64,000 bases of DNA, taken from Daejeonella sp. H1SJ63 (GTDB taxonomy: Bacteria > Bacteroidota > Bacteroidia > Sphingobacteriales > Sphingobacteriaceae). The position numbers were made by a program, and so were the translations under genes. The stretch covers positions 62,001 to 126,000 of the forward strand of contig NZ_JARKMZ010000001.1 in NCBI RefSeq assembly GCF_029360775.1, written 5' to 3'. The notes beneath the pieces were generated by a model. The model made no database searches. It saw only the letters and a list, made by a program, of their open reading frames with translations, and was not told where the DNA came from. Positions 31,488-62,278 of this stretch are shown here, piece by piece; the first letter of the stretch is position 1, and each line of letters begins with the position of its first letter.

Positions 31488-33152
31488 ATGAAACGCAGAG
31501 ATATTTTAAAAGGCCTGACATTGCTTCCCTTTGCAGGTAGCACTTCAGCCATGGAAGTCAGGGTGCCGCAAAACAGCAATGGATTTACCTTTTTATCGGA
31601 TGTATCCAGAACATCTGATACTGAGCTTGCTGACAGGGGGAGAAAAATTCTTAAATCTATTGGAGTTGAACCCTTTGTCAATTGCAAGGGGACCAATACT
31701 ATTATGGGAGGTTCTGTTGCAAGAACAGAGGTTAGACTGGCAATGGAAGCCGTAGCAACACTTAATGTTCAGATGGATGAACTTGTTGAGGGTGTGGGTA
31801 AACGTCTTTCTGAATTAACCGGCGCAGAATGGGGTTTGGTTACTGCCGGTGCTGCAGCTGGTATTAAGTTGTGTACCATTGCCTGTATGACAGGAGGTAA
31901 CCCTGAGAAACTGGTCAGAATACCGAATTTAAACGGATTTGAAAAAACAGAGGTGATTATCCCGGCAGGCATGAGGACGGTTTATGATCAGTCGGTTAGA
32001 ACTACCGGAGCTACAATTATTACAGTTGAGAATGAAGACGATCTAAGAAAAAAAATCGGACCCAAAACAGCAATGATCTATGTTGAAGCGGAGAAAGAAA
32101 ATTTTATGTCGCTGGAGACCATCGTAAAAATTGCAAAACCATTGAAAGTTCCTGTATTTGTTGATGCTGCTGCACATATCCTTACCTTCCCGAATGTTCA
32201 TTTAGCTAAAGGAGCCGATATTGTTGCTTTCAGTGGTGGTAAAGGATTAAAGGCTCCGGGCAGTTCCGGATTGTTACTGGGACGAAAGGATATATTAATG
32301 TCTGCATGGCAGGCTGCCGCTCCGCATCATGGTCCGGGTCGGGATAATAAGGTTGGACGTGAGGAACATATCGGGATGCTGGCAGCAGTTGAGCGATGGA
32401 TCGAGATGGATCATCAGAAAGAAATGCAAACCTGGGTGAGCTGGCTTGAAAATATCGGAAAGGAGGCTTCTGCAGTAAAAGGAGTTACTTATCGTATCAG
32501 AATGCCTGATCCGAAGCTGGTACATCACGTTACCCCTTATTTGTTCATTACCTGGGATCCGGCAAAATTGAATGTTACCGGACAGGAAATATCCGAAGAA
32601 TTGGGTAATACTTATCCAAGAGTTGGGGTAGCTATTTACAGAGATGAACCGGGAGTTACAGGAATTAGTTTGGTTGGATACATGATGGTGCCGGGTGATG
32701 ATAAACTTGCAGCATCGAGAATCAGGGAAGTACTGTCTAAGAAAAGAGAAGCCAAACCGGTTATTCCATTAAAGTCGCCGGCTATAAATATGACCGGACA
32801 CTGGGATATGGATATTGAATTCTATAACAGCTCAGAAAAGCATCTTTTATTTATTGATACTCAGGATGGAAATTATTTTTCCGGAATTTATAAGTCCCGG
32901 TTTTCTGATCGTGTGATAAACGGAACAATAGATGGAGATCTCATTCATATGCAAAGTACCTGGGTTGTTCCCGGTGATCGGATTCAAACTACTTTCCGCG
33001 GCACAGTAAGCGGAGAAAATGTATCAGGCGATGTTGATATGAATGAATTCCTTTCAGCAAAGTTCAGCATCAAACGCAACCGTTCAGCAATTGTAAAACA
33101 AAAGATAGTTTTTCCAAAAGGAAGACCTCAGGGGGGCAATTTTTTAATTTAA
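31488..33152 (+). CDS. Exported SelA/DgaE-like PLP enzyme 1, long form
   Basis: 554 residues. The N-terminus MKRRDILKGLTLLPFAG has a KRR twin-arginine pair and a mild hydrophobic segment, as in Tat leaders. The body (~50-420) is the type I PLP fold of the SelA/DgaE group, with Schiff-base Lys252 in FSGGKGLK and Asp226 (VFVDAAAH) positioned for the pyridine nitrogen. A beta-rich extension (~433-530) with alternating GxW and SG motifs has no counterpart in the short paralogues. Reaction by analogy with DgaE: ammonia-lyase (alpha,beta-elimination) on an amino acid or amino-sugar acid. The loop after Lys is KAPGSSG where the other four have GPQ, so specificity may differ. Confidence 0.85.
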   Translation: MKRRDILKGLTLLPFAGSTSAMEVRVPQNSNGFTFLSDVSRTSDTELADRGRKILKSIGVEPFVNCKGTNTIMGGSVARTEVRLAMEAVATLNVQMDELVEGVGKRLSELTGAEWGLVTAGAAAGIKLCTIACMTGGNPEKLVRIPNLNGFEKTEVIIPAGMRTVYDQSVRTTGATIITVENEDDLRKKIGPKTAMIYVEAEKENFMSLETIVKIAKPLKVPVFVDAAAHILTFPNVHLAKGADIVAFSGGKGLKAPGSSGLLLGRKDILMSAWQAAAPHHGPGRDNKVGREEHIGMLAAVERWIEMDHQKEMQTWVSWLENIGKEASAVKGVTYRIRMPDPKLVHHVTPYLFITWDPAKLNVTGQEISEELGNTYPRVGVAIYRDEPGVTGISLVGYMMVPGDDKLAASRIREVLSKKREAKPVIPLKSPAINMTGHWDMDIEFYNSSEKHLLFIDTQDGNYFSGIYKSRFSDRVINGTIDGDLIHMQSTWVVPGDRIQTTFRGTVSGENVSGDVDMNEFLSAKFSIKRNRSAIVKQKIVFPKGRPQGGNFLI

Positions 33153-33225
33153 AATTCAGGAAGTTTTAATAGAGCAGTAGTTTACCTGATCTGTAGCAGC
33201 AGCTCATCATATATCCAAATATTCA

Positions 33226-34935: not shown

Positions 34936-35403
34936 ATGGAATCAAGCAGAAGGTCAGTGATCACCCGGATATTTTCAGCAATTGCCGGTGTTGCCGGATT
35001 GAGCTTAGTAGCCCGATCTCAAACTCCATCTGATAGTGATCAGCTATTTTTAAGTGCCCGAGCTTCACCCGATGTAAAATTATATCCCGGATCGATCAGA
35101 TATGGAAACCTGGTTTTTGTTTCCGGAACCGGTGCAGATGCAGAATCTGAATTTGAAATAAAGGCCGATACAGATTTCGTTCTTAAAAAGATGGAAAAAC
35201 GATTAATTGCAGCAGGCTCCTCAATGGAGAAGGTGCTGAAAGTAACGGTATTTTTAAGTGATATGGCAGATTTTGAAGGGATGAATTCAATATATAAAGG
35301 CCGTTTTGGGAAAAATCCTCCCGTTCGTTCAACCGTTGCGGTGGCAAAGGGTGGAATTCCGGGCAAATCAATCGTTGAGATTGACTGTATCGCTTATGTA
35401 TGA
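34936..35403 (+). CDS. Exported RidA family protein 1
   Basis: 155 residues: an N-terminal leader with SRRSVITR and a hydrophobic stretch (~12-25) resembling a Tat signal, then a complete RidA domain. The catalytic Arg131 (VRSTVAV) and Glu148 (IVEIDCIAYV), equivalents of RidA Arg105 and Glu120, are present. RidA proteins hydrolyse reactive enamines/imines released by PLP enzymes, which matches its place as last gene of module A. A leader on RidA is unusual, because the housekeeping protein is cytoplasmic. The start at 34936 is supported by the leader itself. Confidence 0.85.
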   Translation: MESSRRSVITRIFSAIAGVAGLSLVARSQTPSDSDQLFLSARASPDVKLYPGSIRYGNLVFVSGTGADAESEFEIKADTDFVLKKMEKRLIAAGSSMEKVLKVTVFLSDMADFEGMNSIYKGRFGKNPPVRSTVAVAKGGIPGKSIVEIDCIAYV

Positions 35404-37567: not shown

Positions 37568-40500
37568 ATGAATTTATTTACTAAAACTGGAGGCTGTTCA
37601 GGACGAGTCCTTTCCTTGGACTTAGAGCCGAAAATAACCAGCGAAATTCGATTCTTAACGCATGGTATTAGCCAATGGATTACATTTCATTCAATTCTCC
37701 TTGTCATGAAGCTGACATTCATTTTTATTATTGTTTTAATTTTAAATGTTCGTGCTGAAGGATTTTCTCAAAAAGTAACATTTAGCGGAGAAAATGTTCC
37801 AATAGAAAAGGTCTTCTCTACAATCAAAAAGCAGACAGGCTATGGATTCTTCTTTCAGGAGGAACTAATCAATTTGGCAAAGCCGGTAACTATTAATGCT
37901 GTTAACGAGGATCTTTCGGAAGTATTGATAATTGTATTTAAAGGACAGCCATTAGAGTTTAGCATTAAAAATAAGACAATATTAGTATTTAAAAAGCCGG
38001 CATCGGTGGTTGGTGGGGAAACTACAAAATTTAATATTCAAGCCTCATCCCAACAACGTGATGTTATTGTCCGTGGTCAGGTTACTGATACTAAAGGCGA
38101 GACACTCCCCGGAGTTAGTATTAAATTAAAGGGGTCAGGTATAGGAGCTACAACGGATCTTGATGGCCGTTTTAGTATAAATGTTCCGGATGAAAGTAGC
38201 GTTCTGATATTTACTTATATAGGCTATAATACTAAGGAGCTTATTGTTGGCGGGAGAACAACAATCAATGTGCAGCTGGAAACAGCTAATACTGCATTGA
38301 ATGAGGTGGTTGTAACTGCTCTTGGTATTTCAAGGGAGTCGAAATCTTTAACTTATTCCGCTCAGAATGTTAGGGGAGATGAATTAACCAAAGCTACCGG
38401 AACCAATGTGGTAAATGCATTGCAAGGAAAAGTTGCAGGTATGACTATTACAAGAGGATCTGGAGGTGTCGGAGGGGGGTCAACGGTTTTACTTCGTGGA
38501 AACCGTTCAATAACAGGTAATAACGCACCTCTATATGTTACTGATGGTGTTCCCGGAAGCATAGGTATTGAAGATGGCGATAATATTGAGAGTATTACCG
38601 TACTTAAGGGTGCGGCGGCAGCAGCATTGTATGGTAGTGCTGGTCAAAACGGAGTAATTCTTATCACAACTAAAAAGGGAAAGGTAGGAACAACATCTGT
38701 GGAATTTAATGGAGGTGTTCTTTTCGATCAGGCTGATATTCATACAGAACTTCAGAACGAATATGCACAGGGTGATGCAGGAATCTATGTTCCATCTTCT
38801 GAGCATAGTTATGGTCCCAAAATGACGGGTCAAAGTGTTGCTTTGTGGAATGGGAAAACGGTGTCTCTTACAGGACAGCCGGATAATTTAAAAGATTTTT
38901 TCAGAACCGGAGCAACCTATAATAATTCCTTGAGTATCAACACCGGAACCGAGAAAATGCAAACATATTTTTCATATGGAAATATTCAGGCTCAGGGAGT
39001 GATGCAGAATAATGATCTTACCAGGCATAATCTGACATTAAGGGTAAATAATACAATTTCTAAGAAATTATCTATTGACACCAAGCTAACTTATAATTCC
39101 GAAAATGTAGACAATGCTCCGGTGAGTTATGCAATCACATCCATTTATCGTACACCGGTGTCGATTCCAACCAGTGAGATGAGAAACTATTTGTATACAG
39201 ATGCAAACGGTAATCCACGTCAGAATTACTGGAAACCAGGATCCTCAATAATTGGGAATCCTTATTTCTACATGTATAGAAATTTAAATAATGATAAGGT
39301 GAGTCGTATTGTCGGATTATTATCTGCAAAATATGATTTCAATGACTGGTTATCATTTCAGATTCGGGGTAATATAAACCGGACTTTTTCTGAGAGTGAC
39401 AATAAGACATACTCAGACTCTTATTGGAGTACTGTAGGTTCTTCCTATGCTATGGGTTTCAATAATAACATTAATTCTAATCTGGATGGATTATTGACCT
39501 TTAAGCGGGATCTGACAAAAAGCATTAAGTTGTCCGGACATCTAGGTGCCTATATTCAGGGAAGCACAAACCGTGGAACGACCAATAATACAAATGGCCT
39601 GAATAAGCAGGATTTTTTCTATTTAAGTAATGCCAGAGCTATTCAGGCTGTCAATACTTTTTCTCAAAGTCCATTGATTCAATCTGTTTATTCATCACTG
39701 ACATTTGCTTATAAAGATTATTTATATCTGGATGTTACAGGTAGAAACGATTGGTCTTCTGCGCTACCTGGTGGAGAGGAGTCTGTATTCTATCCTTCAC
39801 TTGGGCTTACAGCAATTGTGTCAGATATGGTTAAACTTCCATCATGGATTTCATATGGCAAGGCCAGATTATCATCAGCTAATGCAGGAAATGGGGGTAA
39901 TGCTTACTTCGGTAAAGAATATTATCGGGTAGGTGTGGGTGGCCTCATCTCAACACCAACAATTCAGACATTTGACAATTATAAACCTGAACTAACCACC
40001 TCATTTGAAGCAGGATTGGACTGGAGATTTTTTAATAACAGATTGGGTTTTGACTTTACTTATTACAAGACTAAAACTACTAATCAATTGCTTTTAATCG
40101 GAGCTCCGTCTGCTTCAACTTATGATCAGAGGTACATAAATGCAGGTCTGATTGAAAATGATGGAATAGAACTTATTATGAATGTAACCCCATTAAAGAT
40201 TGGTAAATTCTCATGGGATGCAACATTTAATTATTCCAAAAATAATAACAATGTAGTTAGGATAACTGACGAGCAGAAATCAGTTATCATCCAAAGTGAT
40301 GATATCGTTACTACACGAGTTGAGGTTGGACGTCCTTTTGGCGAACTTTATGTAAAGGGATGGCAAAGAGATTCTCAGGGAAGAAAATTAGTGGATTCTC
40401 AGGGCAGGCCATTATTGACTCCGGGTCTGACCATTTATGCCGGTAATTTTAATCCGGATTTTATGACCGGATTAACCAATAGCTTTAATTATAAAAACGT

Positions 40501-40966
40501 ATCATTTGCTTTTCAAATTGATTACAGAAAAGGTGGAAGTATTATAGCAGGTACACAACCCCTGTTAGATGCAGATGGACATTCTAAAAGGTCGCTGGAA
40601 GGGCGCGAAAGTGGGATTATTTTAGATGCTTATCGTGCCGATGGTACGAAGAATTCGACCCCGATTACCTCTCAGGCTTATTTTAGTACAATTGGAGACC
40701 GGAAGCCTACCGGAGAAGAATATAATTATTCTGCTAATAATATGAGATTAAGAGAGGTGACATTGGATTATACAATTCCTGCTAAATTGTTGACCAAAGC
40801 AAAATATATAAAAGGGGCCAAGATTTCCTTTATTGGCAGGAATTTATTCTTCTTTAGTAAGTCAACTCCATTTGATCCCGATATCGCCCGCGGCAGGGGA
40901 GGGAATGAATATATCGCACTTCCTTTTTCAAAAACTTTTGGGCTTAATTTGAGAGCATCATTTTAG
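37568..40966 (+). CDS. SusC-type TonB-dependent transducer/transporter 2 (STN domain)
   Basis: 1132 residues. It has an N-terminal extension, then signal peptide, STN secretin/TonB short domain (~75-140, with YGFFFQEELI), carboxypeptidase-like domain (GQVTDTKGETLPGVSI), TonB-linked plug (EVVVTALGISR) and barrel ending LNLRASF. The STN domain marks it as a transducer signalling to FecR 1. The start is uncertain: an internal ATG at 37706 (MKLTFIFIIVLIL) gives a textbook signal peptide, and the preceding 46 residues may not be translated. Its sequence from the carboxypeptidase-like domain to TALGISRE is very like SusC 3, which suggests duplication. Confidence 0.93.
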   Translation: MNLFTKTGGCSGRVLSLDLEPKITSEIRFLTHGISQWITFHSILLVMKLTFIFIIVLILNVRAEGFSQKVTFSGENVPIEKVFSTIKKQTGYGFFFQEELINLAKPVTINAVNEDLSEVLIIVFKGQPLEFSIKNKTILVFKKPASVVGGETTKFNIQASSQQRDVIVRGQVTDTKGETLPGVSIKLKGSGIGATTDLDGRFSINVPDESSVLIFTYIGYNTKELIVGGRTTINVQLETANTALNEVVVTALGISRESKSLTYSAQNVRGDELTKATGTNVVNALQGKVAGMTITRGSGGVGGGSTVLLRGNRSITGNNAPLYVTDGVPGSIGIEDGDNIESITVLKGAAAAALYGSAGQNGVILITTKKGKVGTTSVEFNGGVLFDQADIHTELQNEYAQGDAGIYVPSSEHSYGPKMTGQSVALWNGKTVSLTGQPDNLKDFFRTGATYNNSLSINTGTEKMQTYFSYGNIQAQGVMQNNDLTRHNLTLRVNNTISKKLSIDTKLTYNSENVDNAPVSYAITSIYRTPVSIPTSEMRNYLYTDANGNPRQNYWKPGSSIIGNPYFYMYRNLNNDKVSRIVGLLSAKYDFNDWLSFQIRGNINRTFSESDNKTYSDSYWSTVGSSYAMGFNNNINSNLDGLLTFKRDLTKSIKLSGHLGAYIQGSTNRGTTNNTNGLNKQDFFYLSNARAIQAVNTFSQSPLIQSVYSSLTFAYKDYLYLDVTGRNDWSSALPGGEESVFYPSLGLTAIVSDMVKLPSWISYGKARLSSANAGNGGNAYFGKEYYRVGVGGLISTPTIQTFDNYKPELTTSFEAGLDWRFFNNRLGFDFTYYKTKTTNQLLLIGAPSASTYDQRYINAGLIENDGIELIMNVTPLKIGKFSWDATFNYSKNNNNVVRITDEQKSVIIQSDDIVTTRVEVGRPFGELYVKGWQRDSQGRKLVDSQGRPLLTPGLTIYAGNFNPDFMTGLTNSFNYKNVSFAFQIDYRKGGSIIAGTQPLLDADGHSKRSLEGRESGIILDAYRADGTKNSTPITSQAYFSTIGDRKPTGEEYNYSANNMRLREVTLDYTIPAKLLTKAKYIKGAKISFIGRNLFFFSKSTPFDPDIARGRGGNEYIALPFSKTFGLNLRASF

Positions 40967-41015
40967 TATTAAATGAGAATTAGATTAGTGTCATTACATT
41001 TTTAAACTTCAGGAA

Positions 41016-42572
41016 ATGAAAAATTATATAAATATTCCATTAAGGGTTAGTATGTTATTCTTGTTATTCATAGCAGCTATTCTAAATAGCTGTACTAAAG
41101 AATTTGACGAAAGAAATACTGATCCAACAGCAGTTACAACACTAAGCCAAACCGATCTTAAGGGTTTGTTCCCAAATGCGCAATGGCAGGGAGTTGCTCT
41201 GGGTGGGGGGTCACAATATCAAAGAGGAGTGAATGCATTCGCTGATTTGTATGCGCAGTATTTTGCGGTAACTCAAACAGCTTTTGCATCAGATCGTTTT
41301 GATTTAACTCAGGCTCGTTTACAGAATCATTGGATACGTTCTTATGTGTTTACTATGCCATCTTTACTTACAATTATTAAACAAACGCAGACCCCGGAGA
41401 CTAAGCCTCTGAATGCAATTGCACGAATTTGGAAAGTATTTAGCCTGATGCGTATCACAGATTACTACGGGCCGGTACCTTATTCTAAGATTGGTTCTTT
41501 AGAAAAAACAATTCCTTACGACTCGCAAAAAGATATTTACTACGATTTCTTTAAGGAGTTAACTGAAGCAAGCGCTGATCTGAAAAATAATATAGCATTA
41601 CCTGGTTATGGATCTCAGGATTTGATATACAATGGAGATAATGCTAAATGGCTTAAGTTTGCTAATACATTACGACTCCGTCTGGCATTGAGAATTTCAA
41701 AAGCTGATGCCGCTAAAGCAAGAATTGAGGCTGAGGCTGCTGTTGCTAACGGTGTTATGACAGCTGTTGCTGATGATGCATATATGAAAGTTGATCCGGC
41801 TCGTCCAAATGCTTTGGGCTTTATCTCTGCATGGAATGAATTCAGAATGAGTCAAACGATGGAAAGTTTTTTAAAGGGATATGATGATCCACGACTCAGT
41901 AGTTATTTTCAACCAGCTGTTAATGATAAGCAATACCGGGGGTTGAGGAATGGAATGATTCCAGCTCAAATTGTTTTACCCGCGAATGGCTACAATAATG
42001 CGTCTAATCTCAATGATCGTTTTACACCGGTGAAGATGAACACTGAACCAATGACCGTTATTCGTTCAGGGGAAGCTTATTTGCTTCGTGCAGAGGGTGC
42101 TGTGAATGGATGGAATATGGGAGGAACGGCAGCTGATTTGTATGCCAAGGGCATCGAAATGTCCATGAGGACGAATGGTATAACAGATGCTACAATCATT
42201 GATAATTATATTAATAGCACTAATTTGCCTTCGGCACCCGGAGGATATTTTAACACTCCGGCAATTAGTGATATTCCTGTCAAGTTTTCAGCGGATCCTG
42301 CAAAGCAGAGAGAGCAGATTGGTACACAGAAATGGCTGGCTTTATTTCCCGATGGGCAGGAAGCCTGGGCTGAGGTCAGAAGATCCGGGTTCCCAAAGAG
42401 GTATAATGTGATTAATTCGGACAATCCGGATGTACCGGTTGGGAAATTTGTTCGCCGGATTGTATTCCTCGAGTATGATAAAGACAGGAATGGTCAGGCC
42501 GTTAAGGATGCTGTGGCTCTTTTAGGAGGGCCTGACTTGGCATCGACTCCCCTGTGGTGGGATAAGAATTAA
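41016..42572 (+). CDS. SusD-like outer-membrane lipoprotein 2
   Basis: 518-residue lipoprotein (lipobox ILNSC) of the SusD-like branch that begins CTKEFDERNTDPT and ends in a conserved WWDKN. It differs from the RagB type at 19236. It pairs with SusC 2 encoded 49 bp upstream and should capture the substrate at the surface. SusD 3 in module C has the same architecture (start CTKDLAELNKNPN, end WWDKE). A long perfect hairpin follows, so the next three genes are probably transcribed less or separately. Confidence 0.93.
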   Translation: MKNYINIPLRVSMLFLLFIAAILNSCTKEFDERNTDPTAVTTLSQTDLKGLFPNAQWQGVALGGGSQYQRGVNAFADLYAQYFAVTQTAFASDRFDLTQARLQNHWIRSYVFTMPSLLTIIKQTQTPETKPLNAIARIWKVFSLMRITDYYGPVPYSKIGSLEKTIPYDSQKDIYYDFFKELTEASADLKNNIALPGYGSQDLIYNGDNAKWLKFANTLRLRLALRISKADAAKARIEAEAAVANGVMTAVADDAYMKVDPARPNALGFISAWNEFRMSQTMESFLKGYDDPRLSSYFQPAVNDKQYRGLRNGMIPAQIVLPANGYNNASNLNDRFTPVKMNTEPMTVIRSGEAYLLRAEGAVNGWNMGGTAADLYAKGIEMSMRTNGITDATIIDNYINSTNLPSAPGGYFNTPAISDIPVKFSADPAKQREQIGTQKWLALFPDGQEAWAEVRRSGFPKRYNVINSDNPDVPVGKFVRRIVFLEYDKDRNGQAVKDAVALLGGPDLASTPLWWDKN

Positions 42573-48809: not shown

Positions 48810-51800
48810 ATGAAATATTTTACAAACAGTACGTCAGGGGCTATACTCGTGAATACGATCACAGTTAGCTCTAACCGCAAAAAACTTATAATTCAGATTA
48901 TGCGAATTGGCTTTATATCCATTGCCATGCTACTCATTTCTTTGCAGATGCTCATGGCTCTGCCGGCTAAGAGCCAGAAGATTAGTTCGGTAGAAGTCAG
49001 GTTAGAGCTCAGGAATGAGACTTTATTGTCAGCGTTTAAGAAAATCGAGCAGCAAACTCCTTTTCGTTTTGTATATCGCAAAGGAGAATTGATGACCTTG
49101 CCTTCAAAAAACATCAGCCAATCAACTTATACGGTTGAGCAGGTACTGAATTTGCTTTTGGAGAATACTGATCTTTCCTATAAGCAGGTAGATAATAATG
49201 TACTTATACAGTCAAATAATAATCAGTCTGCAAGACTAATCAAGACTGAAGAAACTGTTAATGTTGTTGCTGACATTACCATCCGTGGTCAGATTACAGA
49301 TTCTAAAGGAGAAACCCTTCCCGGAGTAAGTATCAAAATAAAAGGCAGTAATACCGGTGCAACAACAGATATTGACGGAAGATATTCAATCAATGTGCCG
49401 GATAAGAGCAGCGTTTTGGTATTTACCTATATCGGATATCAAACTCAGGAAGTTACAATAGGCGACAGAACTACTTTGAATGTAAAGCTTGAAGCTGCCA
49501 ATACAGCACTTACCGAAGTGGTTGTAACCGCTTTGGGTATTTCCAGAGAGAAGAAAGCCCTTGCTTATGCAGTAACCGAGGTTAAGGGAGAAGAGTTTAC
49601 CCAGGCAAGGGAAAACAACGTTGCAAATGCATTTAGTGGTAAGATCGCCGGTGTGAACGTAACAGGTATGTCATCAGGTCCGGGTGGCTCCAGCCGTGTA
49701 ATTATCCGTGGTAACGGATCATTGAGTGGTAATAATCAGCCTTTATATGTGATCAATGGTATGCCGATGAACAATACAGCACGTTCACAGGCACAGGGTG
49801 AGGGAGCAACCATATTAGACCGAGGCGATGGTATTGCTGCGATTAATCCTGATGATATTGAAACTATTAACGTACTTAAAGGCGGGCCAGCTGCTGCACT
49901 TTATGGTAGCCAGGCATCAAACGGTGTAATTTTGATTACGACGAAAAGTGGTAAGGCTCAGAAAGGCGTTGGTGTAGAACTCAATAGTAACTTTACTGTC
50001 GGCAGTCCGTCGATGTATCCTGATCTGCAGTATGTTTATGGTCAGGGTCTTGATGGAGTGAAGCCTAAAACCAAAGCTGAGGCAATCAGCTCAGGCCGTC
50101 TTTCATTCGGTGCCAAAATGGATGGTCAGCCCTATATTCAGTTTGACGGGGTGATGCGTCCTTATTCTCCGGTTAATGTCAAAGATAACTGGAAGAACTT
50201 CTACAGACCTAGTACCAATTTAACCAATACTGTGGCATTTTCGGGAGGAAGCACTCCGCAATTAACTTACAGATTGTCATTATCTGACCTTGAGGCTCAG
50301 GCTATGGAGCCAGGTTCAAGCTATAACAGACAAACCGGTAACTTAAGTTTAAGATCTGTTCTTGGAAAGAGGATCATCGTTGAGTCAACAATGCAGTACA
50401 ACGTTGAAAGAGGTATCAATCGTCCGGGAAATGGATATGCTGATAACACCACATCATGGGCAACCAATCTTTTGGCAAATACGGTAGATATCCGCAGTCT
50501 GGCACCGGGTTATGATGCCAACTTTAATGAAGTTCAGTGGCAGCAGGTGCCGGAGGCTCAGAATCCTTATTTCGTTATTAACAGAATGGGAAATAAGGAT
50601 ACCAAGAACCGCTTTATGGGACAGGCAAGTATTCAGTATAATATTCTGGATGATTTGTCGGTTAAAGTTAGTGGAATGAGAGATATTGACAGATTCAACT
50701 CAATGGATTATATGCCGATAGGTACTGCAAAGAGACCCAGAGGTTTGTTCAATTCCGGTACTTCTTTTGTAACCAAAACTACTGCTCAGGCATTATTGAA
50801 TTACAATAAAACTTTCTTTAAAGATTTCCAGTTAACTGCAATGGCGGGGGGGAATATTGAAAGAAACGTTGCTGAATCAACTGCAAATTACGGATCGGAA
50901 TTCATTGTTCCTGATTTTATCAGTTTCTCTAACCTTGCTATTCAGTCGGCAAGCGTGGGTTTAAGCCGCTTCGGACAGAATTCGGTATTTGGTTCTGCTG
51001 ATATTGGCTATAAGAGTTTGCTTTATTTCACATTTACAGGAAGACAGGATTGGTTCTCAACTTTGAATCCGGGGAATAACTCAATATTCTATCCTTCATT
51101 TGGTACAAGCTTTATTCTTTCAGATGCCATCAAATTACCTTCTGTTATCAGTTTTGCTAAGTTGAGAGCTTCATGGGCACAGGTGGGTGGAGCAACTGTT
51201 AGTCCTTATCAGATCAACCAGCTTTATACTTTTGAACAGGGTGGGCACATTGGTCGTCCGGTTCAGAATACTTCAAGTGCTTTGTCAAACCCGAATTTGA
51301 GACCTCTTACTTCAACAACCTATGAAGGAGGTATTGATATTCAGTTTCTTAACAACCGCTTAGGGTTAGATTTTACTTATTATAACCGTAAAACTACAGA
51401 TGATATCCTGAGTACTTCGATTGCAGGTTCATCAGGTTATACCTCGGCATTATTAAATGTTGGAGAGCTGAGTAATAGGGGAGTTGAGATCCTGTTAACC
51501 GGTACTCCGATTAAATCAAATAAGTTCACCTGGGATGTAAGCTATAATGCGGCTTACAATAAGAGTGAGATTTTGAAACTTGCGCCGGGCCTGAGTACTG
51601 TGGGCGGTGCCGGTGTTGGCAGGCCTTATAATACAATCAGAGGAAGAACTTATTTAACCAATGCAAGTGGTGTACGAGTATATAATAAGCTGAGTGGATA
51701 TGAAGTTCAGAGCCCTGAGATGGAATATGGTCAGGGTGTGCCTCCGTATACAATGGGACTGACCAATAATTTCAGATACAAAAACTTCTCACTTAATATT

Positions 51801-52268
51801 CTTTTGGATGCCAAATTCGGAAATATCGTTCAGTCGGGCTTAAGCCGCTATATGTACCGTTTCGGACTATCTAAGAATACACTTCCGGGAAGAGAAAATG
51901 GTTTGACTGTTTCGGGAGTTGATCAAACGGGAGCACCTTTTACAAAAACCTGGCCAGTTGATCAGTTAGATACCTATTATAATAACCAGGCAAGTATCAG
52001 CCCATTAACTACTTCAGTTTTTGATGGCGATTTCGTGAAACTTCGCAGCGCAGTTTTAAGCTACAGATTACCTGTAAATAAACTGCAGTCTCTGAAGATT
52101 CAGTCGGCTGATATTTCCCTTGTTGCAAGAAATCCGTTTATACTTTATAAGCATATCACGGATTTCGATCCTGAATCTGCCTACACGATCGGCAATACTC
52201 AGGGGCAATCATCAAATACAATTCCAAGAACCCGCGATATTGGGGTGAATTTAATTGTAAGGTTTTAA
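48810..52268 (+). CDS. SusC-type TonB-dependent transducer/transporter 3 (STN domain)
   Basis: 1152 residues: extension and signal peptide (cleavage near AKSQK), STN domain (~60-130, FRFVYRKGELM), carboxypeptidase-like domain (GQITDSKGETLPGVSI), plug (EVVVTALGISR, ENNVANAFSGKIAGVNV) and barrel ending VNLIVRF. An internal ATG at 48900 (MRIGFISIAML) could be the true start. As a transducer it signals to FecR 2 and sigma factor 2. SusD 3 follows almost without a gap. The substrate is probably that of the enzymes downstream in the same module. Confidence 0.93.
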   Translation: MKYFTNSTSGAILVNTITVSSNRKKLIIQIMRIGFISIAMLLISLQMLMALPAKSQKISSVEVRLELRNETLLSAFKKIEQQTPFRFVYRKGELMTLPSKNISQSTYTVEQVLNLLLENTDLSYKQVDNNVLIQSNNNQSARLIKTEETVNVVADITIRGQITDSKGETLPGVSIKIKGSNTGATTDIDGRYSINVPDKSSVLVFTYIGYQTQEVTIGDRTTLNVKLEAANTALTEVVVTALGISREKKALAYAVTEVKGEEFTQARENNVANAFSGKIAGVNVTGMSSGPGGSSRVIIRGNGSLSGNNQPLYVINGMPMNNTARSQAQGEGATILDRGDGIAAINPDDIETINVLKGGPAAALYGSQASNGVILITTKSGKAQKGVGVELNSNFTVGSPSMYPDLQYVYGQGLDGVKPKTKAEAISSGRLSFGAKMDGQPYIQFDGVMRPYSPVNVKDNWKNFYRPSTNLTNTVAFSGGSTPQLTYRLSLSDLEAQAMEPGSSYNRQTGNLSLRSVLGKRIIVESTMQYNVERGINRPGNGYADNTTSWATNLLANTVDIRSLAPGYDANFNEVQWQQVPEAQNPYFVINRMGNKDTKNRFMGQASIQYNILDDLSVKVSGMRDIDRFNSMDYMPIGTAKRPRGLFNSGTSFVTKTTAQALLNYNKTFFKDFQLTAMAGGNIERNVAESTANYGSEFIVPDFISFSNLAIQSASVGLSRFGQNSVFGSADIGYKSLLYFTFTGRQDWFSTLNPGNNSIFYPSFGTSFILSDAIKLPSVISFAKLRASWAQVGGATVSPYQINQLYTFEQGGHIGRPVQNTSSALSNPNLRPLTSTTYEGGIDIQFLNNRLGLDFTYYNRKTTDDILSTSIAGSSGYTSALLNVGELSNRGVEILLTGTPIKSNKFTWDVSYNAAYNKSEILKLAPGLSTVGGAGVGRPYNTIRGRTYLTNASGVRVYNKLSGYEVQSPEMEYGQGVPPYTMGLTNNFRYKNFSLNILLDAKFGNIVQSGLSRYMYRFGLSKNTLPGRENGLTVSGVDQTGAPFTKTWPVDQLDTYYNNQASISPLTTSVFDGDFVKLRSAVLSYRLPVNKLQSLKIQSADISLVARNPFILYKHITDFDPESAYTIGNTQGQSSNTIPRTRDIGVNLIVRF

Positions 52269-52292
52269 TTAATGTTATCTAATATTTTGAAC

Positions 52293-53846
52293 ATGAAAAA
52301 GCTAAGTTTTAAACCTATATATACGACTCTTGTTCTGGCCATCTTCTTGTCATCCTGTACAAAGGATCTTGCCGAGCTGAATAAGAATCCAAATGCTTAC
52401 GAGAGTGTAAACCCTAATTTCCTCTTTACAAAAGCTCAACTGGGAGCCATTGGATTAAATCCAAATGGAAACCGCTTTAATAATATGCAGATGCTTCAGC
52501 AGGAAGCTACTTACAGTGAAGTAACAGCTCCGGGCGATAAATATTTTGCTGAAGGCTACGTCAGGAATAACTGGGCAGCATTTTCCGGATGTTTGAATCA
52601 AATACAGCTGGTAATCAATGAAGTGAAGAAGGATCCTGCGATGGTTAATAAATTATCTGCAGCAAGAATCTGGAGAGTTTATATCAATCATCAGTTAACA
52701 GATCTGTATGGGGATATTCCATATTCTGAAGCTCTTAAAGGTCTGGATGGAAAATATCAACCTAAATATGATCTTCAGTCTGATATCTATAAGGATATGT
52801 TTAAGGAACTTGAAGAATCGGCAGCAGCATTCGATGCATCTAAACCTACATTCGGAAATTCTGATCTGTTTTATGATGGTAATACTGTAAAATGGAAGAA
52901 ATTCGCCTATTCTATGATGCTTAGATTAGGAATGCGTTTAACCAAGATCGATCCTGCTCTGGCTAAAACCTGGGTTGAAAAAGCGATTGCGGGCGGTCCA
53001 ATCATTGATGATGCTGACCTTACAAGAGCACCATATGCTGATGGAGGATTAGCGAGTAACAGAAATCCATTCTCAGAACAGATGAGAATTCTTGATTATG
53101 TTGATGGTCAAAATCCTTTGAATGTTCAGGGATCTAAGATTTCTCAGCGTTTTATTGATCATCTGAAGGGTAATTCAACAACTACAAAAGATCCGCGTTT
53201 GAATGTTATCGCCGTTTTATGGGTAAAACAGTCTACCGGAGGTTACGTAGCGGATACTGCCACTGCTTTACAGAAAGGTATGAAGAATGCTCAGTTTAAC
53301 GGATATCCTGCGGATTTTGAAACCTATTCTGAGCCAAATCCAAATACCGTAATGAGATACGATGCTCCTGTTATTGTAATGAGTTCGGCTGAAGTTCATT
53401 TTCTGCTTGCAGAAGCATCTATCCGGGGCTGGTATACAGGAAATGAGGCTACCTCTTATAATAATGGGGTAAGATCAGCAATGAAACAATGGTCGCTTTA
53501 TGGTGCCGGGGGCGCAATTTCTACTGATAAGGTTGATACTTATCTGAAATATAATCCATTCCTTTCTGCGGGTACTTTTGAGCAGAAGCTTGAGCAGATT
53601 TCCACTCAGCGCTGGGTTTTAGGTTATCTCGACCAGATTGAAAACTTCTCTAACTGGAGACGTACAGGATATCCGGTTCTGATTCCAACGAATTATCCTG
53701 GTAATATTACCGGCGGTAGAATTCCTCGTCGTTATATTGTTCCGGAGTCTGAGGAAACTTTGAACAGAGAGAACTTCCTGGCTGCCAAGGCCAGACAAAG
53801 CGGAGATAATACCCTGCTGAGTCGTGTTTGGTGGGATAAGGAGTAA
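52293..53846 (+). CDS. SusD-like outer-membrane lipoprotein 3
   Basis: 517 residues from the ATG at 52293 (MKKLSFKPIYTT), which begins the lipoprotein signal (FLSSC). An in-frame ATG at 52272 would add seven residues without purpose. It belongs to the same SusD-like branch as the module B protein (CTKDLAELNKNPNAY, ending RVWWDKE). It is the surface substrate-binding partner of SusC 3. A terminator follows, so the enzyme genes of module C may be expressed by read-through or their own promoter. Confidence 0.93.
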   Translation: MKKLSFKPIYTTLVLAIFLSSCTKDLAELNKNPNAYESVNPNFLFTKAQLGAIGLNPNGNRFNNMQMLQQEATYSEVTAPGDKYFAEGYVRNNWAAFSGCLNQIQLVINEVKKDPAMVNKLSAARIWRVYINHQLTDLYGDIPYSEALKGLDGKYQPKYDLQSDIYKDMFKELEESAAAFDASKPTFGNSDLFYDGNTVKWKKFAYSMMLRLGMRLTKIDPALAKTWVEKAIAGGPIIDDADLTRAPYADGGLASNRNPFSEQMRILDYVDGQNPLNVQGSKISQRFIDHLKGNSTTTKDPRLNVIAVLWVKQSTGGYVADTATALQKGMKNAQFNGYPADFETYSEPNPNTVMRYDAPVIVMSSAEVHFLLAEASIRGWYTGNEATSYNNGVRSAMKQWSLYGAGGAISTDKVDTYLKYNPFLSAGTFEQKLEQISTQRWVLGYLDQIENFSNWRRTGYPVLIPTNYPGNITGGRIPRRYIVPESEETLNRENFLAAKARQSGDNTLLSRVWWDKE

Positions 53847-53947: not shown

Positions 53948-55246
53948 ATGAAGCGCAGAGACCTTATTAAATACCTGTCAGTATTGCCTGTGTCGGGTAC
54001 AGTGGCGGGTGCTATTTTGCCGGTACAGTCTGTAAATGCAGAAGAGATCCAGACTTATAAACCTGATGTGCAATCCGGACCCAAACGTATTGCTGCAATT
54101 TTAACAGAATATCGTCCGATTTCCCATGCCGATGTAATAGTTGGTAAATACCTTGAGGGTTTTAATCAGGATCAGATGGCACCTTATCCTGATTCTAAGA
54201 TCGTTTCAATATTTACCGAGCAGGTACCGGAAAATGATATGAGCCGTTCAATGGCGAAGAAATATAATGTACCTGTTTTCAGAACAGTTGCAGACGCTTT
54301 GACTCTGGGTGGTGATAATCTTGCAGTTGACGGAATTTTGCTGATCGGAGAGCATGGAGTTTACCCGATGAATGATAAAGAGCAAAAACTTTATCCAAGG
54401 TTTGAAATGTTTCTTAAGATAACTGATGTCTTCAGACAGTACAAAAAATCAGTTCCTGTTTTTAACGATAAACATTTATCCTATAGCTGGCGACAGGCAA
54501 AGCGAATGGTGGAAATATCAAAGGAGTTAAAATTCCCGATGCTTGCAGGCTCAACTATTCCGGTTTCGTTACGTATTCCGGCGGTGGATACACCTTATGG
54601 AGTGAAGCAAAAATATGCTGTTGGGATTTCTTTCAGCGGACTGGATATTTATGGATTTCATTTGCTGGATGGTTTACAGGCTGTTGTTGAGAGAAGAAAG
54701 GGCGGTGAAACAGGTGTTCGTGCAGTACAATGCCTGGAGGGGCAGGATTGCTGGAATTATATTGATCAGAATGAATGGGTAAAACGACTGTTTGATCAGG
54801 CAATTTCTCATAGTGAAACCCGGGTGGCAGGTAATATGAAAGAATTGGTTAAGAAGCCTGCGGTATTTATTATAGATTATAATGATGGTCTGAAGGCAGC
54901 AGCATTTCTGATGACCGGGCTCGTTCAGGATTTTACGTATGCTGTGGATCTTGAAGGCCAGCAAAAACCATTCTCCACATTAATGAAGTTGCAGGCAGGA
55001 AGACCTCATTATCATTTTGGGTGTCTGGTTAAGAAAATAGAAATAATGTTCAAAACCGGCAAGGCTCCTTATCCGGTAGAACGTACAATGTTGAGTAGCG
55101 GAATATTGGATTTTGCACTTGAATCACGTATATTGGGATATAAAAAACTGGAAACTCCGGAATTGTCACGGGTACGTTACCTTACTTCTTCGGAATCGCA
55201 CTTTTTTAGTAAAGGATGGGATAGTAATGGCAAAAGATTAGACTGA
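53948..55246 (+). CDS. Uncharacterised exported protein with Tat-like leader
   Basis: 432 residues with a KRR Tat-like leader (MKRRDLIKYLSVLPVSG), the same type as on the PLP enzymes. The body has ILTEYRPISHADVIVGKYLEGF-like text near residue 36, GVLLIGEHG-like text (ILLIGEHGVYPMN) near 138, VPVFNDKHLSYSW near 178 and IYGFHLLDGLQAVVERRKGGETG near 240. I recall similar unnamed proteins from Planctomycetes and Acidobacteria but no known activity. The N-terminal part may be Rossmann-like. It is the first enzyme-side gene of module C, so it probably acts on the same substrate. Function unknown. Confidence 0.75.
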   Translation: MKRRDLIKYLSVLPVSGTVAGAILPVQSVNAEEIQTYKPDVQSGPKRIAAILTEYRPISHADVIVGKYLEGFNQDQMAPYPDSKIVSIFTEQVPENDMSRSMAKKYNVPVFRTVADALTLGGDNLAVDGILLIGEHGVYPMNDKEQKLYPRFEMFLKITDVFRQYKKSVPVFNDKHLSYSWRQAKRMVEISKELKFPMLAGSTIPVSLRIPAVDTPYGVKQKYAVGISFSGLDIYGFHLLDGLQAVVERRKGGETGVRAVQCLEGQDCWNYIDQNEWVKRLFDQAISHSETRVAGNMKELVKKPAVFIIDYNDGLKAAAFLMTGLVQDFTYAVDLEGQQKPFSTLMKLQAGRPHYHFGCLVKKIEIMFKTGKAPYPVERTMLSSGILDFALESRILGYKKLETPELSRVRYLTSSESHFFSKGWDSNGKRLD

Positions 55247-55344: not shown

Positions 55345-56598
55345 ATGAGAAAGCTTTATATTTTTCTTTTTAGTCTTCTGTTGCCATGTCTATTAATGGC
55401 TCAGACAAAACCATACAATATTATTATTAAAGGCGGTCACGTAATTGATCCAAAGAATAATATCAATCGTGTTATGGATGTGGCTATTGCTAATGGTAAG
55501 GTTGCTAAGGTCGCAGCAAATATCGATGCTTCTCAGTCAACCCATGTGGTCAATGCAGCAGGGATGTATGTTACTCCCGGTCTTATTGATATTCATGGGC
55601 ATGTTTTTGCCGGTACTCAGGAAAATCATATGTACAGCAATGGCTTTAATAGCATAATGCCTGATGGATTTTATCAGCGTGTGGGTGTTACTACCGTAGT
55701 TGATGCCGGAGGTTCAGGCTGGAGAGATTTTCTGACATTTAAAAAGAATATTATTGATAATTCCCAGACACGTGTTCTGGCTTTTCTGAATATTGTTGGT
55801 AATGGAATGCGCGGAGGAATTATTGAGCAGAATACCACCGATATGGATCCGCAAATTGCGGCTAAAGCTGCACTTGCTTACAAGGAGCATGTTGTTGGAA
55901 TAAAGGTAGCTCATTTTACAAGCCCTGATTTTACCAATGTTGATCGTGGTGTTGCAGCAGGAAAACTTGCAAATATGCCTGTAATGATCGATTTCGGAGG
56001 TACTAAACCTCGTCTTTCATTGTACTCTCTGCTGATGGAGCGTCTTCGTCCGGGTGATATATTCACACATACTTTTGGAGAACTTCTTGACACTAAAGAA
56101 GCTATTGTTGATACAGCAAAACAGCAGCTAAAACCTTACGTAATGGCTGCTCAGAAAAGAGGGGTGATCTTTGATGTAGGTTACGGTGGTTCAAGTTTCA
56201 GATATTCACAGGCAATTCCTGCGGCAAAAGCGGGATTTCATCCTAATACCATCAGTACAGATTTACACATCAGCAGTATGAAGGGATCAATGAAAGATAT
56301 GCTTTTGGTGATGTCGAAATTTTTGAAACTGGGAATGGATCTTCCTGCAGTAATCAATGCAAGTACCTGGGCTCCGGCAAAAGCAATTAATCGCCCTCAG
56401 CTGGGGCATCTTTCTGAAGGAGCAATCGCTGATATTGCGATTTTAGGGATGAGAAAAGGAAAATTCGGATTCTATGATATGCAGGGCTACAAGATGGACA
56501 GTGATGAAAAACTGGAGTGTGAAATGACCATTTTCGGTGGCAAAATAGTTTACGATCTGAATGGGATTGTGAATCCGCTGCCTGATCTTACTAAATAA
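55345..56598 (+). CDS. COG3964-type amidohydrolase paralogue 4, altered metal site
   Basis: 417 residues with a signal peptide (LLMAQ, ~residue 20). The HxH pair His84/His86 (DIHGHVFAG), the Lys in GIKVAHF, FTHTF and Asp in ISTDLH are present. The family DVGHG reads DVGYG: the metal-ligand His is Tyr280. A Tyr at this place may leave one metal, alter the substrate, or inactivate the enzyme. The gene is 31 bp before PLP enzyme 3 and near-identical in layout to paralogue 5, so gene duplication with divergence is likely. Confidence 0.87.
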   Translation: MRKLYIFLFSLLLPCLLMAQTKPYNIIIKGGHVIDPKNNINRVMDVAIANGKVAKVAANIDASQSTHVVNAAGMYVTPGLIDIHGHVFAGTQENHMYSNGFNSIMPDGFYQRVGVTTVVDAGGSGWRDFLTFKKNIIDNSQTRVLAFLNIVGNGMRGGIIEQNTTDMDPQIAAKAALAYKEHVVGIKVAHFTSPDFTNVDRGVAAGKLANMPVMIDFGGTKPRLSLYSLLMERLRPGDIFTHTFGELLDTKEAIVDTAKQQLKPYVMAAQKRGVIFDVGYGGSSFRYSQAIPAAKAGFHPNTISTDLHISSMKGSMKDMLLVMSKFLKLGMDLPAVINASTWAPAKAINRPQLGHLSEGAIADIAILGMRKGKFGFYDMQGYKMDSDEKLECEMTIFGGKIVYDLNGIVNPLPDLTK

Positions 56599-59168: not shown

Positions 59169-60422
59169 ATGCAAAAACGTTTTTTCTTATTGGCAGCACT
59201 TTTTTTAGTTGCTAATTTCTCAGTTCAGGCACAGACTTATCAAACTCTGCTAAAAGGCGGTCATCTTATTGACGCAAAAAATAATATTAATAAAGTAATG
59301 GATGTAGCCATTCAGGATGGCAAGATCGCAGCTGTTGCGGCAAATATTGATCCTAAATCGGCAAAGCAGGTAATTGATATTTCCGGAAAATATATCACTC
59401 CCGGATTGATTGATATTCATGGTCATGTGTTTGCGGGTACTGATCATGAAGGTCAGCTGGAGAATGGATTCTCTTCACTACCGGCTGATGGATTTACTTT
59501 CCGGGTTGGAGTTACCACCATTGTGGATTGTGGAGATTCAGGTGCAGAAACATTTGAGTTGTTCAAGAAAAATGTAATCGACAAAGTTCAGACCCGTGTT
59601 CTGGCATTTTTGAATATCTCAAAAAAGGGAATGTATGGTAGTGAATATTCTCTGGAGCAGCAAAATAACAGTTTCTTTGATCCGGTACTTGCAGCAGATG
59701 TTGCCAAACATTACAGTGACTATATTGTAGGGTTTAAAGTTGCACACTACCATAAATCTGACTGGGTAGCTGTTGACAGGACAGTGGAAGCGGGTAAACT
59801 TGCCAACAAGCCAATCATGGTTGATTTCGGAGGAGCGATCCCTAGATTATCACTGGAGGAATTGTTCCTTAGAAAAATGCGCCCCGGCGATATTTTTACT
59901 CATACTTACGGACAAATACTTAAAACAAAGGAAACTATTGTTGATCTTGATACAAAGAAATTATACCCGTATGTTCTTGAAGCAAGAAAAAGAGGGGTCA
60001 TTTTTGATGTAGGCCATGGTGGTGGAAGTTTCACCTTTTCACAGGCAATACCGGCTACAAAACAAGGGTTCTATCCTGAAACTATCAGTACTGACCTTCA
60101 TACAGGAAGTATGAATTCAGCAATGAAAGATCAGCTGAATGTAATGTCGAAATTCATGGCTCTTGATATGCCATTGGCAGATGTTGTGAAAGCCAGTACC
60201 TGGTCAGCTGCAAAAGCAATCAATCATGAGGAACTTGGACATTTATCTGTTGGTGCAATAGCTGATATCGCTGTATTGAACCTTCGTGAAGGCAAGTTCG
60301 GATTTTACGATGTAGCACGTTACAAAAAAGAAGGTAAGAATCTCCTTGAATGCGAGATGACTATTAAAGATGGCAGGGTAGTTTATGACCTGAATGCAAG
60401 ATCATTCCCATCTGCTGAATAA
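59169..60422 (+). CDS. COG3964-type amidohydrolase paralogue 5, complete site
   Basis: 417 residues with a signal peptide (VQAQT). The ligands are complete: His84/His86 (DIHGHVFAG), Lys in VGFKVAHYH, FTHTYGQ, FDVGHGGG and Asp in ISTDLHTGS. With paralogue 2 it is the best candidate for an active binuclear hydrolase. It is placed between PLP enzyme 4 and RidA 2 (48 bp). By family it cleaves an amide or ester bond in the periplasm, probably freeing an amino group for the PLP enzymes. Confidence 0.9.
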   Translation: MQKRFFLLAALFLVANFSVQAQTYQTLLKGGHLIDAKNNINKVMDVAIQDGKIAAVAANIDPKSAKQVIDISGKYITPGLIDIHGHVFAGTDHEGQLENGFSSLPADGFTFRVGVTTIVDCGDSGAETFELFKKNVIDKVQTRVLAFLNISKKGMYGSEYSLEQQNNSFFDPVLAADVAKHYSDYIVGFKVAHYHKSDWVAVDRTVEAGKLANKPIMVDFGGAIPRLSLEELFLRKMRPGDIFTHTYGQILKTKETIVDLDTKKLYPYVLEARKRGVIFDVGHGGGSFTFSQAIPATKQGFYPETISTDLHTGSMNSAMKDQLNVMSKFMALDMPLADVVKASTWSAAKAINHEELGHLSVGAIADIAVLNLREGKFGFYDVARYKKEGKNLLECEMTIKDGRVVYDLNARSFPSAE

Positions 60423-60470
60423 ACACTTGAATTAACATTTTCTAATTATATACAATCCTTTTACACCAAC

Positions 60471-61019
60471 ATGAAAAGATCAATTATTTTTTTTCTGTTC
60501 TTATTTACAGTTTGCATTTTAAATATTAGTTCAGCTCAGGCTCAGCAACTTACCGCAAAAGATCCGGAAACCAGAATTAAAGAGCTGGGTATTAAATTAA
60601 GAACTCCGGGACCGCCTTCTGCTAATTTTTTGGGAGCTGTCAGAGTAGGTAACCTGGTTTACCTTTCAGGTCAGGGTCCGCTGAAGGAAGATGGGAAATT
60701 CATGATCGGTAAGGTTGGTAAGGAATTCAATTTTGATGAGGCCAAATATGCTGCACGTTTAACAGGAATTAGTTTGCTGGCAGCATTAAAAGCTGAAGTT
60801 GGAAACCTGAATAATGTGAAAAGGATTGTAAAGGTGCTGGGAATGGTTAATGCTGTCCCTGAATTTGACAATCATTCACAGGTTATTAATGGATTCTCTG
60901 ATCTGATGGTAGAGGTCTTTGGTGAAAATGGGAAACATGCCCGTTCAGCGATCGGATTGGGCTCATTACCGAGAAATATACCGGTAGAAATCGAAATGAT
61001 CGTAGAAATGAAAGACTGA
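60471..61019 (+). CDS. Exported RidA family protein 2
   Basis: 182 residues with a Sec signal peptide (MKRSIIFFLFLFTVCIL, cleavage near SAQAQ) and a RidA domain. Arg158 (HARSAIGLGS) and Glu173 (PVEIEMIVEM) match the catalytic Arg and following Glu. It is of the longer RidA type with an extra N-terminal strand (IKLRTPGPPSANFLGAV). Together with RidA 1 it gives each enzyme module an imine deaminase, again exported. It lies between amidohydrolase 5 and PLP enzyme 5 (26 bp), in one operon. Confidence 0.87.
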   Translation: MKRSIIFFLFLFTVCILNISSAQAQQLTAKDPETRIKELGIKLRTPGPPSANFLGAVRVGNLVYLSGQGPLKEDGKFMIGKVGKEFNFDEAKYAARLTGISLLAALKAEVGNLNNVKRIVKVLGMVNAVPEFDNHSQVINGFSDLMVEVFGENGKHARSAIGLGSLPRNIPVEIEMIVEMKD

Positions 61020-61045
61020 TTTTTTAAACCTTTAAAAGTATTATC

Positions 61046-62278
61046 ATGAAACGTAGAGAAATCATTAAGTTTTTATCTGCTGCACCCCTTGCAGGAGGAA
61101 TCATAGGAAGCGGTCTTCCGCTTCAGTCGGCCTTTGCAGAAGAAGCAGCTGCTGCTGCCGGAAGAGATCTGTTCAAAGAGCTGGGCCTTAAAACTTTTAT
61201 CAATGCATCCTGTGTTTGTACTCGCTTAACGGCTTCCCTGATGCCTCCTGAGGTTACCCAGGCTATTACAAAAGGAGCTGAAGAGTTTGTATTACTTGAT
61301 GATGTGCTTGATAAGGTAGGTGAAAAGATTGCAGAACTTTGTCATGCGGAAGCTGCAACTGTTACTGCCGGTTGCTGGTCTGCCCTTGTACAGGGTCTTG
61401 CTGGTGTCATGACCGGTATGGATCGTAAAAAGGTGATGCAGCTTCCTAATGTGGATGGAATGAAGTCTGAAGTGATCCTTCAGAAATCTCATGCCAATGG
61501 ATATCACGAAGCTTTGAAAAACACAGGAGCTAAATTGGTTATTGTTGAAACTGCAGCGCAGGCTGAAGCAGCCATCAATGAGAAAACAGCGATGCTTTGG
61601 TTTCTGAACAGAGAACTTTCTGCTGGTCAGTTGAACTATGAACAATGGTTAGCCTTAGGTAAGAAGCACGGGGTTCCTACAATGATCGATATTGCATCTG
61701 ATGCACACCCGGTAGAGAATCTGTGGAAGTTCAATGATATGGGGTTTGATCTTGTTGCTATTTCAGGAGGAAAAGCAATGCGTGGTCCTCAAAGTGCCGG
61801 AATTCTGATGGGCAAAAAAGCTCTGATTGCTGCAGCACGCCTTAGTGCACCACCAAATAGTGGAATCTGCCGTGGTCATAAAGTAAATAAAGAAGAGATT
61901 CTGGCAATGTATGTGGCGCTGGAACGTCATATTAAAATGGACCATGAAAAAGAATGGAAAATGTGGGAAGACAGGATGGCGGTTGTGGTTAATACTATAA
62001 AGGGAATCAAGGGTGTGAAGACAGAAGTTTTCCTTCCGGAAATTGCAAACAACACTCCGACACTTCACCTTACATGGGATGATGCCCAAATAAAAATGAC
62101 GGGAAAAGAATTCAGAGAACGTTTGTGGAATGGTAATCCCGGTATTGAAGTAATGGGGGGCGGTACAATGGGTAAGAGCAAAGGAGGAATTGAACTATCT
62201 GTATGGCAGTTGAAGCCCGGACAGGATAAGATTGTCGCCAGAAGGCTAAAAGAGGAATTGATGGCAGCTTCAGTATAA
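61046..62278 (+). CDS. Exported SelA/DgaE-like PLP enzyme 5, short form
   Basis: 410 residues. The leader MKRREIIKFLSAAPLAG is followed by an alanine-rich AEEAAAAAG stretch at ~31-39, a likely cleavage zone. Lys243 (ISGGKAMRGPQ) and Asp215 (MIDIASDAHP) are present. It has DAHP where 3 and 4 have ADLP/ADVP, and a cysteine-containing SCVCTR near residue 55 where they have SGYFT or AGNYT, so it is the most divergent of the short forms. It lies 35 bp before the BASS transporter gene. Confidence 0.87.
   Translation: MKRREIIKFLSAAPLAGGIIGSGLPLQSAFAEEAAAAAGRDLFKELGLKTFINASCVCTRLTASLMPPEVTQAITKGAEEFVLLDDVLDKVGEKIAELCHAEAATVTAGCWSALVQGLAGVMTGMDRKKVMQLPNVDGMKSEVILQKSHANGYHEALKNTGAKLVIVETAAQAEAAINEKTAMLWFLNRELSAGQLNYEQWLALGKKHGVPTMIDIASDAHPVENLWKFNDMGFDLVAISGGKAMRGPQSAGILMGKKALIAAARLSAPPNSGICRGHKVNKEEILAMYVALERHIKMDHEKEWKMWEDRMAVVVNTIKGIKGVKTEVFLPEIANNTPTLHLTWDDAQIKMTGKEFRERLWNGNPGIEVMGGGTMGKSKGGIELSVWQLKPGQDKIVARRLKEELMAASV

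Follow-up and report, generated by a model that had tools for sequence, protein, structure and literature searches.

PLP enzymes with twin-arginine leaders in Daejeonella sp. H1SJ63 and a probable periplasmic module of deacylation and ammonia elimination

PLP chemistry is generally regarded as cytoplasmic. The locus described here, which lies in a window of 64,000 nucleotides (the whole stretch of DNA analysed) from Daejeonella sp. H1SJ63, raises the question of whether a group of PLP enzymes may work outside the inner membrane and, if so, in which process and together with which partners. The original prediction had proposed that five PLP paralogues of the locus begin with the sequence MKRR[DEN][IL][LI]K, read as a Tat leader, and this common start was borne out both by the ORF starts and by the PLP-family matches of the encoded proteins.

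The PLP enzymes of the locus and their relatives

The five genes are the following:

31488..33152, plus strand: PLP1, predicted Tat leader, DgaE/SelA-like fold-type I core and C-terminal beta domain; 554 aa
33226..34899, plus strand: PLP2, layout like PLP1; 557 aa
56630..57838, plus strand: PLP3, predicted Tat leader and DgaE/SelA-like core; 402 aa
57928..59145, plus strand: PLP4, predicted Tat leader and DgaE/SelA-like core; 405 aa
61046..62278, plus strand: PLP5, predicted Tat leader and DgaE/SelA-like core; 410 aa

From PLP1 to PLP5 the leaders start with MKRRDILK, MKRRNLIK, MKRREILK, MKRREILK and MKRREIIK, and all five start codons are unambiguous, since a stop codon precedes any alternative upstream in-frame start. 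The cores of the other paralogues of the locus are 32–51% identical to that of PLP1. A sixth gene of the locus, with the leader MKRRDLIK (53948..55246, plus strand), encodes a protein for which the structure model was poor and searches of Pfam, NCBIfam and the PDB gave no match; it is conserved among relatives of the Daejeonella type and, to some extent, in Bryobacterales (L045).

The number five holds for the locus but not for the genome, as a search with the enzyme core only revealed 17 full-length PLP paralogues in 3.65 Mb, all with MKRR Tat-type leaders. Amidohydrolases of the cog3964 type, the type that neighbours the PLP genes, number 25 in this genome. In a sample of Sphingobacteriaceae the PLP enzymes were found in 25 of 151 genomes, with at least 13 scored copies only within the same genus, and in a phylum-wide sample in 7 of 296. 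Two more Sphingobacteriales genomes gave 18 and 17 matches, and Daejeonella lutea DSM 22385 has seven copies of the family. Outside this order, matches per genome reached 23 in Bryobacterales (G306), about 15, some of them fragments, in Latescibacterota (G305) and 14 in one acidobacterial genome.

Among the Pfam and NCBIfam families surrounding the PLP cores (aminotransferase class V, SelA), the best one was the DgaE ammonia-lyase family. All five proteins match the DgaE/SelA-related model TIGR01437 (E-values from 1e-38 to 1e-50), with 134–173 bits, well under the curated cut-off of 385.3, and score 126–145 bits with the DgaE model NF047797, below its membership threshold of 600. The cut-off of PF03841 was reached by PLP3–PLP5 only. 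A SelA function was ruled out by score (at most 38.5 bits, against a cut-off of 267.9 for TIGR00474). The Schiff-base lysine in an SGGK motif and the aspartate facing the pyridine nitrogen are present in all five enzymes and, in a family-wide alignment, in 193/193 and 192/193 sequences, respectively; the members of the family are thus likely to be catalytically active.

The closest solved structure to PLP4 was DgaE (7lc0; E = 2e-32), which shares the fold-type I PLP core and the catalytic Lys and Asp, with the whole core aligned. The AlphaFold2 model of PLP2 (pLDDT 84.9, with residues 1–47 at low confidence) shows a fold-type I core followed by an eight-strand beta domain at the C-terminus (residues 445–537). 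A Foldseek search with this model ranked DgaE first and Cap15 (8t7j) second, in a near tie, with a TM-score of 0.87 on the DgaE chain and about 25% identity to DgaE. The C-terminal beta domain of PLP1 and PLP2 is absent from DgaE, and the length of the C-terminal tail is bimodal across the family, with almost no residues or about 100–139.

In unrooted trees, from which the direction of any change of compartment is not readable, the leader-bearing enzymes separate from DgaE, Cap15 and the rhizobial and haloarchaeal enzymes; the sister clade with DgaE also holds the O2-dependent decarboxylase Cap15. By their sequences, the PLP enzymes of the locus are distantly related to DgaE (D-glucosaminate-6-phosphate ammonia-lyase) and retain the catalytic Lys; because their scores are far under the DgaE cut-offs, an ammonia-lyase reaction is suggested to us by the sister clade.

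Leaders and predicted export

The family profile starts at residue 39–60 of these proteins, so that the leader is an added extension, absent from cytoplasmic relatives. The motif RRx[hydrophobic] occurred in 6.4% of shuffled leaders versus 17/17 paralogues of the genome. Since the initial scan for homologues was seeded on the MKRR leader (97/99 with leader) and therefore biased, we relied on a profile of the core only: 69 of the 74 homologues selected in this way, from Bacteroidota, Acidobacteriota and others, have Tat-type leaders, namely 58/62 genes with intact N-terminus from the genome set that gave the copy numbers above and 11/12 from the phylum sample. The five exceptions are two leaderless copies from Anaerolineales, which fall inside the exported group in the tree, one distant match and two genes with possibly misplaced starts. 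Both Granulicella relatives carry a leader, and none of the ten plasmid-borne relatives (rhizobia, Caballeronia, haloarchaea, Lacticaseibacillus, Niallia) does; the leaderless relatives begin directly at the enzyme core.

The 178 distinct leaders follow the consensus xRRx[LVIF][LIF]K, with the first Arg of the RR pair at any position between residues 2 and 20, and this pair is conserved across phyla while the flanking sequence and the length of the leader vary. The mean hydrophobicity of the h-region was 1.59 in the PLP leaders versus 2.35 in the neighbouring Sec-like signal peptides. A strict AxA cleavage motif was found in only 114 of the 178 leaders and a lipobox in nine, and these nine argue for export, as lipoboxes make sense solely with it. 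The original prediction was to fall if the genome had no tatABC; one tatC (C54:182001) and three tatA/B-type genes were found. Its reading of the leader is supported by the fit to the Tat consensus, the weak h-region and the retention of RR across phyla, and we consider export of the PLP enzymes via Tat, as judged from sequence, very probable. Homologues that combine a Tat leader with a lipobox were observed at L155, L177, L179, L186, L192, L193, L195 and L197, and these are predicted Tat-exported PLP-binding lipoproteins.

Deacylases, RidA proteins and other neighbours

The PLP genes are intermixed in the window with five amidohydrolases of the cog3964 type, and two RidA genes lie alongside:

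28922..30166, plus strand: AH1, cog3964-type amidohydrolase/deacetylase, Sec-like signal peptide
30184..31461, plus strand: AH2, cog3964-type amidohydrolase, Sec-like signal peptide, metal-ligand motifs aligning with 2ogj
45091..46341, plus strand: AH3, cog3964-type amidohydrolase, Sec-like signal peptide
55345..56598, plus strand: AH4, cog3964-type amidohydrolase, Sec-like signal peptide
59169..60422, plus strand: AH5, cog3964-type amidohydrolase, Sec-like signal peptide
34936..35403, plus strand: RidA-family protein, twin-arginine leader (MESSRRSVITRIF), PF01042 73.5 bits
60471..61019, plus strand: RidA/YjgF-family protein, Sec-like signal peptide, PF14588/PF01042

AH1, the only amidohydrolase scored with PRK09237, reached 356 bits, slightly under the curated cut-off of 371. 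The solved structures closest to AH2 include two cog3964 amidohydrolases (2ogj, 2ics), whose metal-ligand motifs align with its own; unlike them, the proteins described here carry Sec-like signal peptides. The metal-ligand motifs HxH...K...H...H...D are complete in AH2, AH3 and AH5, and in AH1 the sequence HSR replaces HxH, while AH4 has a Tyr at the fourth motif, where the usual ligand is His; the metal sites of AH1 and AH4 are possibly altered, or the enzymes possibly inactive. A regular-expression check of these ligands across loci, which missed many members, served as a rough guide. Both RidA proteins of the locus score above the PF01042 cut-off of 27.3 bits (73.5 and 45.7). Near PLP genes across loci, a Sec-like leader was found in 92/96 intact amidohydrolases, and a Tat or Sec leader in 38/38 scored RidA proteins.

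Other genes of the locus are listed below:

37568..42572, plus strand: SusC/SusD-type outer-membrane uptake pair (SusD by PF12741, SusC by inspection)
42737..43486, plus strand: CBM9-like carbohydrate-binding domain protein with signal peptide (PF16011)
43486..45060, plus strand: fusion of cytochrome c and GSDH (glucose/sorbosone dehydrogenase) that may oxidise aldoses (PF07995, 349 bits)
48810..53846, plus strand: second SusC/SusD-type pair (by inspection)
62314..63414, plus strand: SBF/BASS-type symporter related to PanS (ketopantoate/pantoate transporter), which may import the 2-keto acid product

The second SusC/SusD pair lies upstream of a run formed by the 53948 gene, AH4, PLP3, PLP4, AH5, RidA, PLP5 and the SBF gene, with spacings of 3–101 bp; the short spacings (17–98 bp within runs) suggest that the runs are operons. 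Of 144 PLP loci, 61 have a cog3964 gene on the same strand no more than 6 kb away, and 36 have a RidA gene so placed. Recurrent neighbours were secreted RraA-like proteins, GSDH-cytochrome c proteins, SGL and 7-bladed lactonases and SBF transporters, as well as CBM9 proteins, KDPG aldolase, Amidohydro_2 proteins with a Tat leader, DgoK and UxuA; genes for sugar acids adjoin many PLP copies, not all.

Some further observations concern these neighbourhoods. RraA-like proteins (PF03737) with Sec-like signal peptides stand beside PLP genes in 18 loci (L031:8646, L025:7951, L121:6266 and others), and a secreted pyruvate-type aldolase of this kind would be odd. Positions 15989–26586 of the window encode, in a row, SusC/SusD, FG-GAP/UnbV_ASPIC, PAP2/haloperoxidase-like and thioredoxin-like proteins, and the order FG-GAP, GSDH, PLP and PAP2 was found again at L120, L013 and L014.

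A putative periplasmic pathway, its alternatives and known systems

Around the families, leaders, catalytic residues, Tat genes and co-localisation, which were observed directly, we infer an order of steps and a role for the transporter. The DgaE-like PLP ammonia-lyases would take up PLP while folding in the cytoplasm and then exit via Tat, the cog3964-type deacylases would exit via Sec, and the RidA-type enamine deaminases by either route. Once these enzymes are in the periplasm, the deacylase would take the N-acyl group off a 2-acylamino-3-hydroxy acid, the PLP enzyme would then remove water across C2–C3, and hydrolysis of the resulting enamine/imine by RidA would release ammonia and leave a 2-keto(-3-deoxy) acid, to be imported by an SBF-type or other symporter. 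The substrates could be the aldonic acids of N-acetylated amino sugars, supplied by the cytochrome c-linked sugar dehydrogenase and the secreted lactonases of the loci, with separate paralogues serving separate sugars. That deacylase, lyase and RidA form a catabolic module in the periplasm we regard as likely. As to the substrates, the repeated presence of sugar dehydrogenases, lactonases, KDPG aldolase and DgoK in the neighbourhood makes N-acetylated amino-sugar acids the best candidates; we give this assignment, drawn from neighbouring genes, an even chance. Taken as a whole, a Tat/Sec-exported module for periplasmic deacylation and ammonia elimination, perhaps working on amino-sugar acids, is the explanation that we favour with some reserve.

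The same exported module might act instead on N-acyl amino acids or N-acyl-homoserine lactones, which we consider unlikely: a secreted lactonase would open the lactone, the cog3964 enzyme would deacylate it, and the PLP and RidA proteins would deaminate homoserine, serine or threonine. Such a route is consistent with the co-encoded lactonases, acylase-type amidohydrolases and RidA proteins, with weak secondary matches of the PLP proteins to gamma-elimination PLP families and with the use of N-acyl-D-amino acids by related D-aminoacylases of the amidohydrolase superfamily (PMC12017989), but the nearby KDPG aldolase, DgoK, UxuA, GSDH and CBM9 genes indicate sugar acids, and of the characterised PLP enzymes the one most similar in sequence is an ammonia-lyase for an amino-sugar acid. 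A literature search on acyl-homoserine together with RidA and a PLP enzyme gave no matching paper. As regards the chemistry, the adjoining RidA implies a free enamine/imine product, and the deacylase and KDPG aldolase neighbours suit a catabolic lyase; this makes it improbable that, rather than ammonia elimination, the enzymes catalyse an O2-dependent reaction (oxidative decarboxylation to a carboxamide, or oxidative deamination) like Cap15 and PvdN, both of which use O2 and PLP (PMC6411801). Cap15 does come close to DgaE in the structure search, and the position of its essential Lys262 is a Lys in 193/193 members of the family; the same residue is a Lys in DgaE as well, and Cap15 clusters with DgaE outside the exported clade, so that it is not closer than DgaE.

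It could also be argued that the enzymes stay in the cytoplasm and that MKRR, as an N-terminal extension, was merely inherited among the paralogues of one genus. The retention of RR across phyla despite changing leader sequence and length, the lipobox leaders, the clear Sec-like signals of the partner enzymes and the leaderless relatives that start right at the core make this very unlikely. An equally slight chance is given to a tailoring role for the module, in which a secreted product would be modified much as pyoverdine is by PvdN and PtaA, rather than a role in breaking down nutrients: the described Tat-exported PLP enzymes are indeed tailoring enzymes (PMC6206403), but the genes described here come with SusC/D uptake pairs and ECF sigma/anti-sigma-type genes, exist as many paralogues and have catabolic neighbours, and inspection of the copies in the genome revealed no biosynthetic cluster around them.

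PvdN had been put forward in the original prediction as precedent for a Tat-exported PLP enzyme; the precedent is real and PtaA is a second case, as Tat carries both Pseudomonas enzymes out in folded form, cofactor included (PMC6206403). They are single siderophore-tailoring genes, described as encoding a decarboxylating amide-former and a transaminase, and differ in this from the DgaE/SelA-like lyases of the locus with their deacylase and RidA partners. The predicted co-export of deacylases and RidA proteins, the 17-member expansion and the grouping near DgaE go beyond what had been noticed originally. The exceptions that we found described are single tailoring enzymes, whereas 17 PLP enzymes would be exported by this one genome; members of the family are also found in several other phyla, in many cases at high copy number. 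It may equally well be or not be the case that these enzymes, at up to 17–23 per genome in Bacteroidota and Acidobacteriota, represent a large and apparently undescribed class of Tat-exported PLP lyases, with the whole PLP-dependent deamination placed in the periplasm together with exported deacylases and RidA. If the favoured pathway is true, amino-sugar acids would be processed outside the inner membrane and keto acids alone would need to cross it. An exported RidA protein implies the formation of reactive enamines in its own compartment, out of reach of the cytoplasmic PLP enzymes that they could otherwise poison, and this may be one reason for the placement of the pathway.

The steps resemble those of the Ong pathway of Pseudoalteromonas, in which a deacetylase, a PLP deaminase and RidA take N-acetylglucosaminate towards KDG in the cytoplasm, each gene being essential for growth on N-acetylglucosaminate (PMC9537276): the proposed deacetylation, PLP-dependent deamination, RidA protein and KDG-type product are common to both. 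By contrast, OngB is of the D-aminoacylase type (subtype V), OngC is a fold-type III PLP enzyme, and the Ong steps are cytoplasmic. The PLP step is therefore not homologous, and membership in the Ong pathway was ruled out, as the PLP core described here is of fold-type I, beside DgaE. DgaE itself is without leader, and its gene in Lacticaseibacillus sits with PTS genes.

The same enzyme families as in the Daejeonella locus stand side by side, without leaders, on rhizobial plasmids (Phyllobacterium, Rhizobium). In Phyllobacterium, a leaderless deacylase, RidA and PLP enzyme lie beside ABC permeases and a substrate-binding protein, and in Rhizobium a leaderless RidA and PLP enzyme lie beside a full ABC importer; being encoded with an importer, these enzymes presumably meet a substrate that is imported first. 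The arrangement fits an enzyme set that would be cytoplasmic in rhizobia and periplasmic here, and the same families with and without leaders offer a clean comparison for why a pathway switches compartment. Leaderless relatives from Sinorhizobium (L131, L132) were observed within phosphonate- or natural-product-like clusters (aepX, CDP-alcohol transferase).
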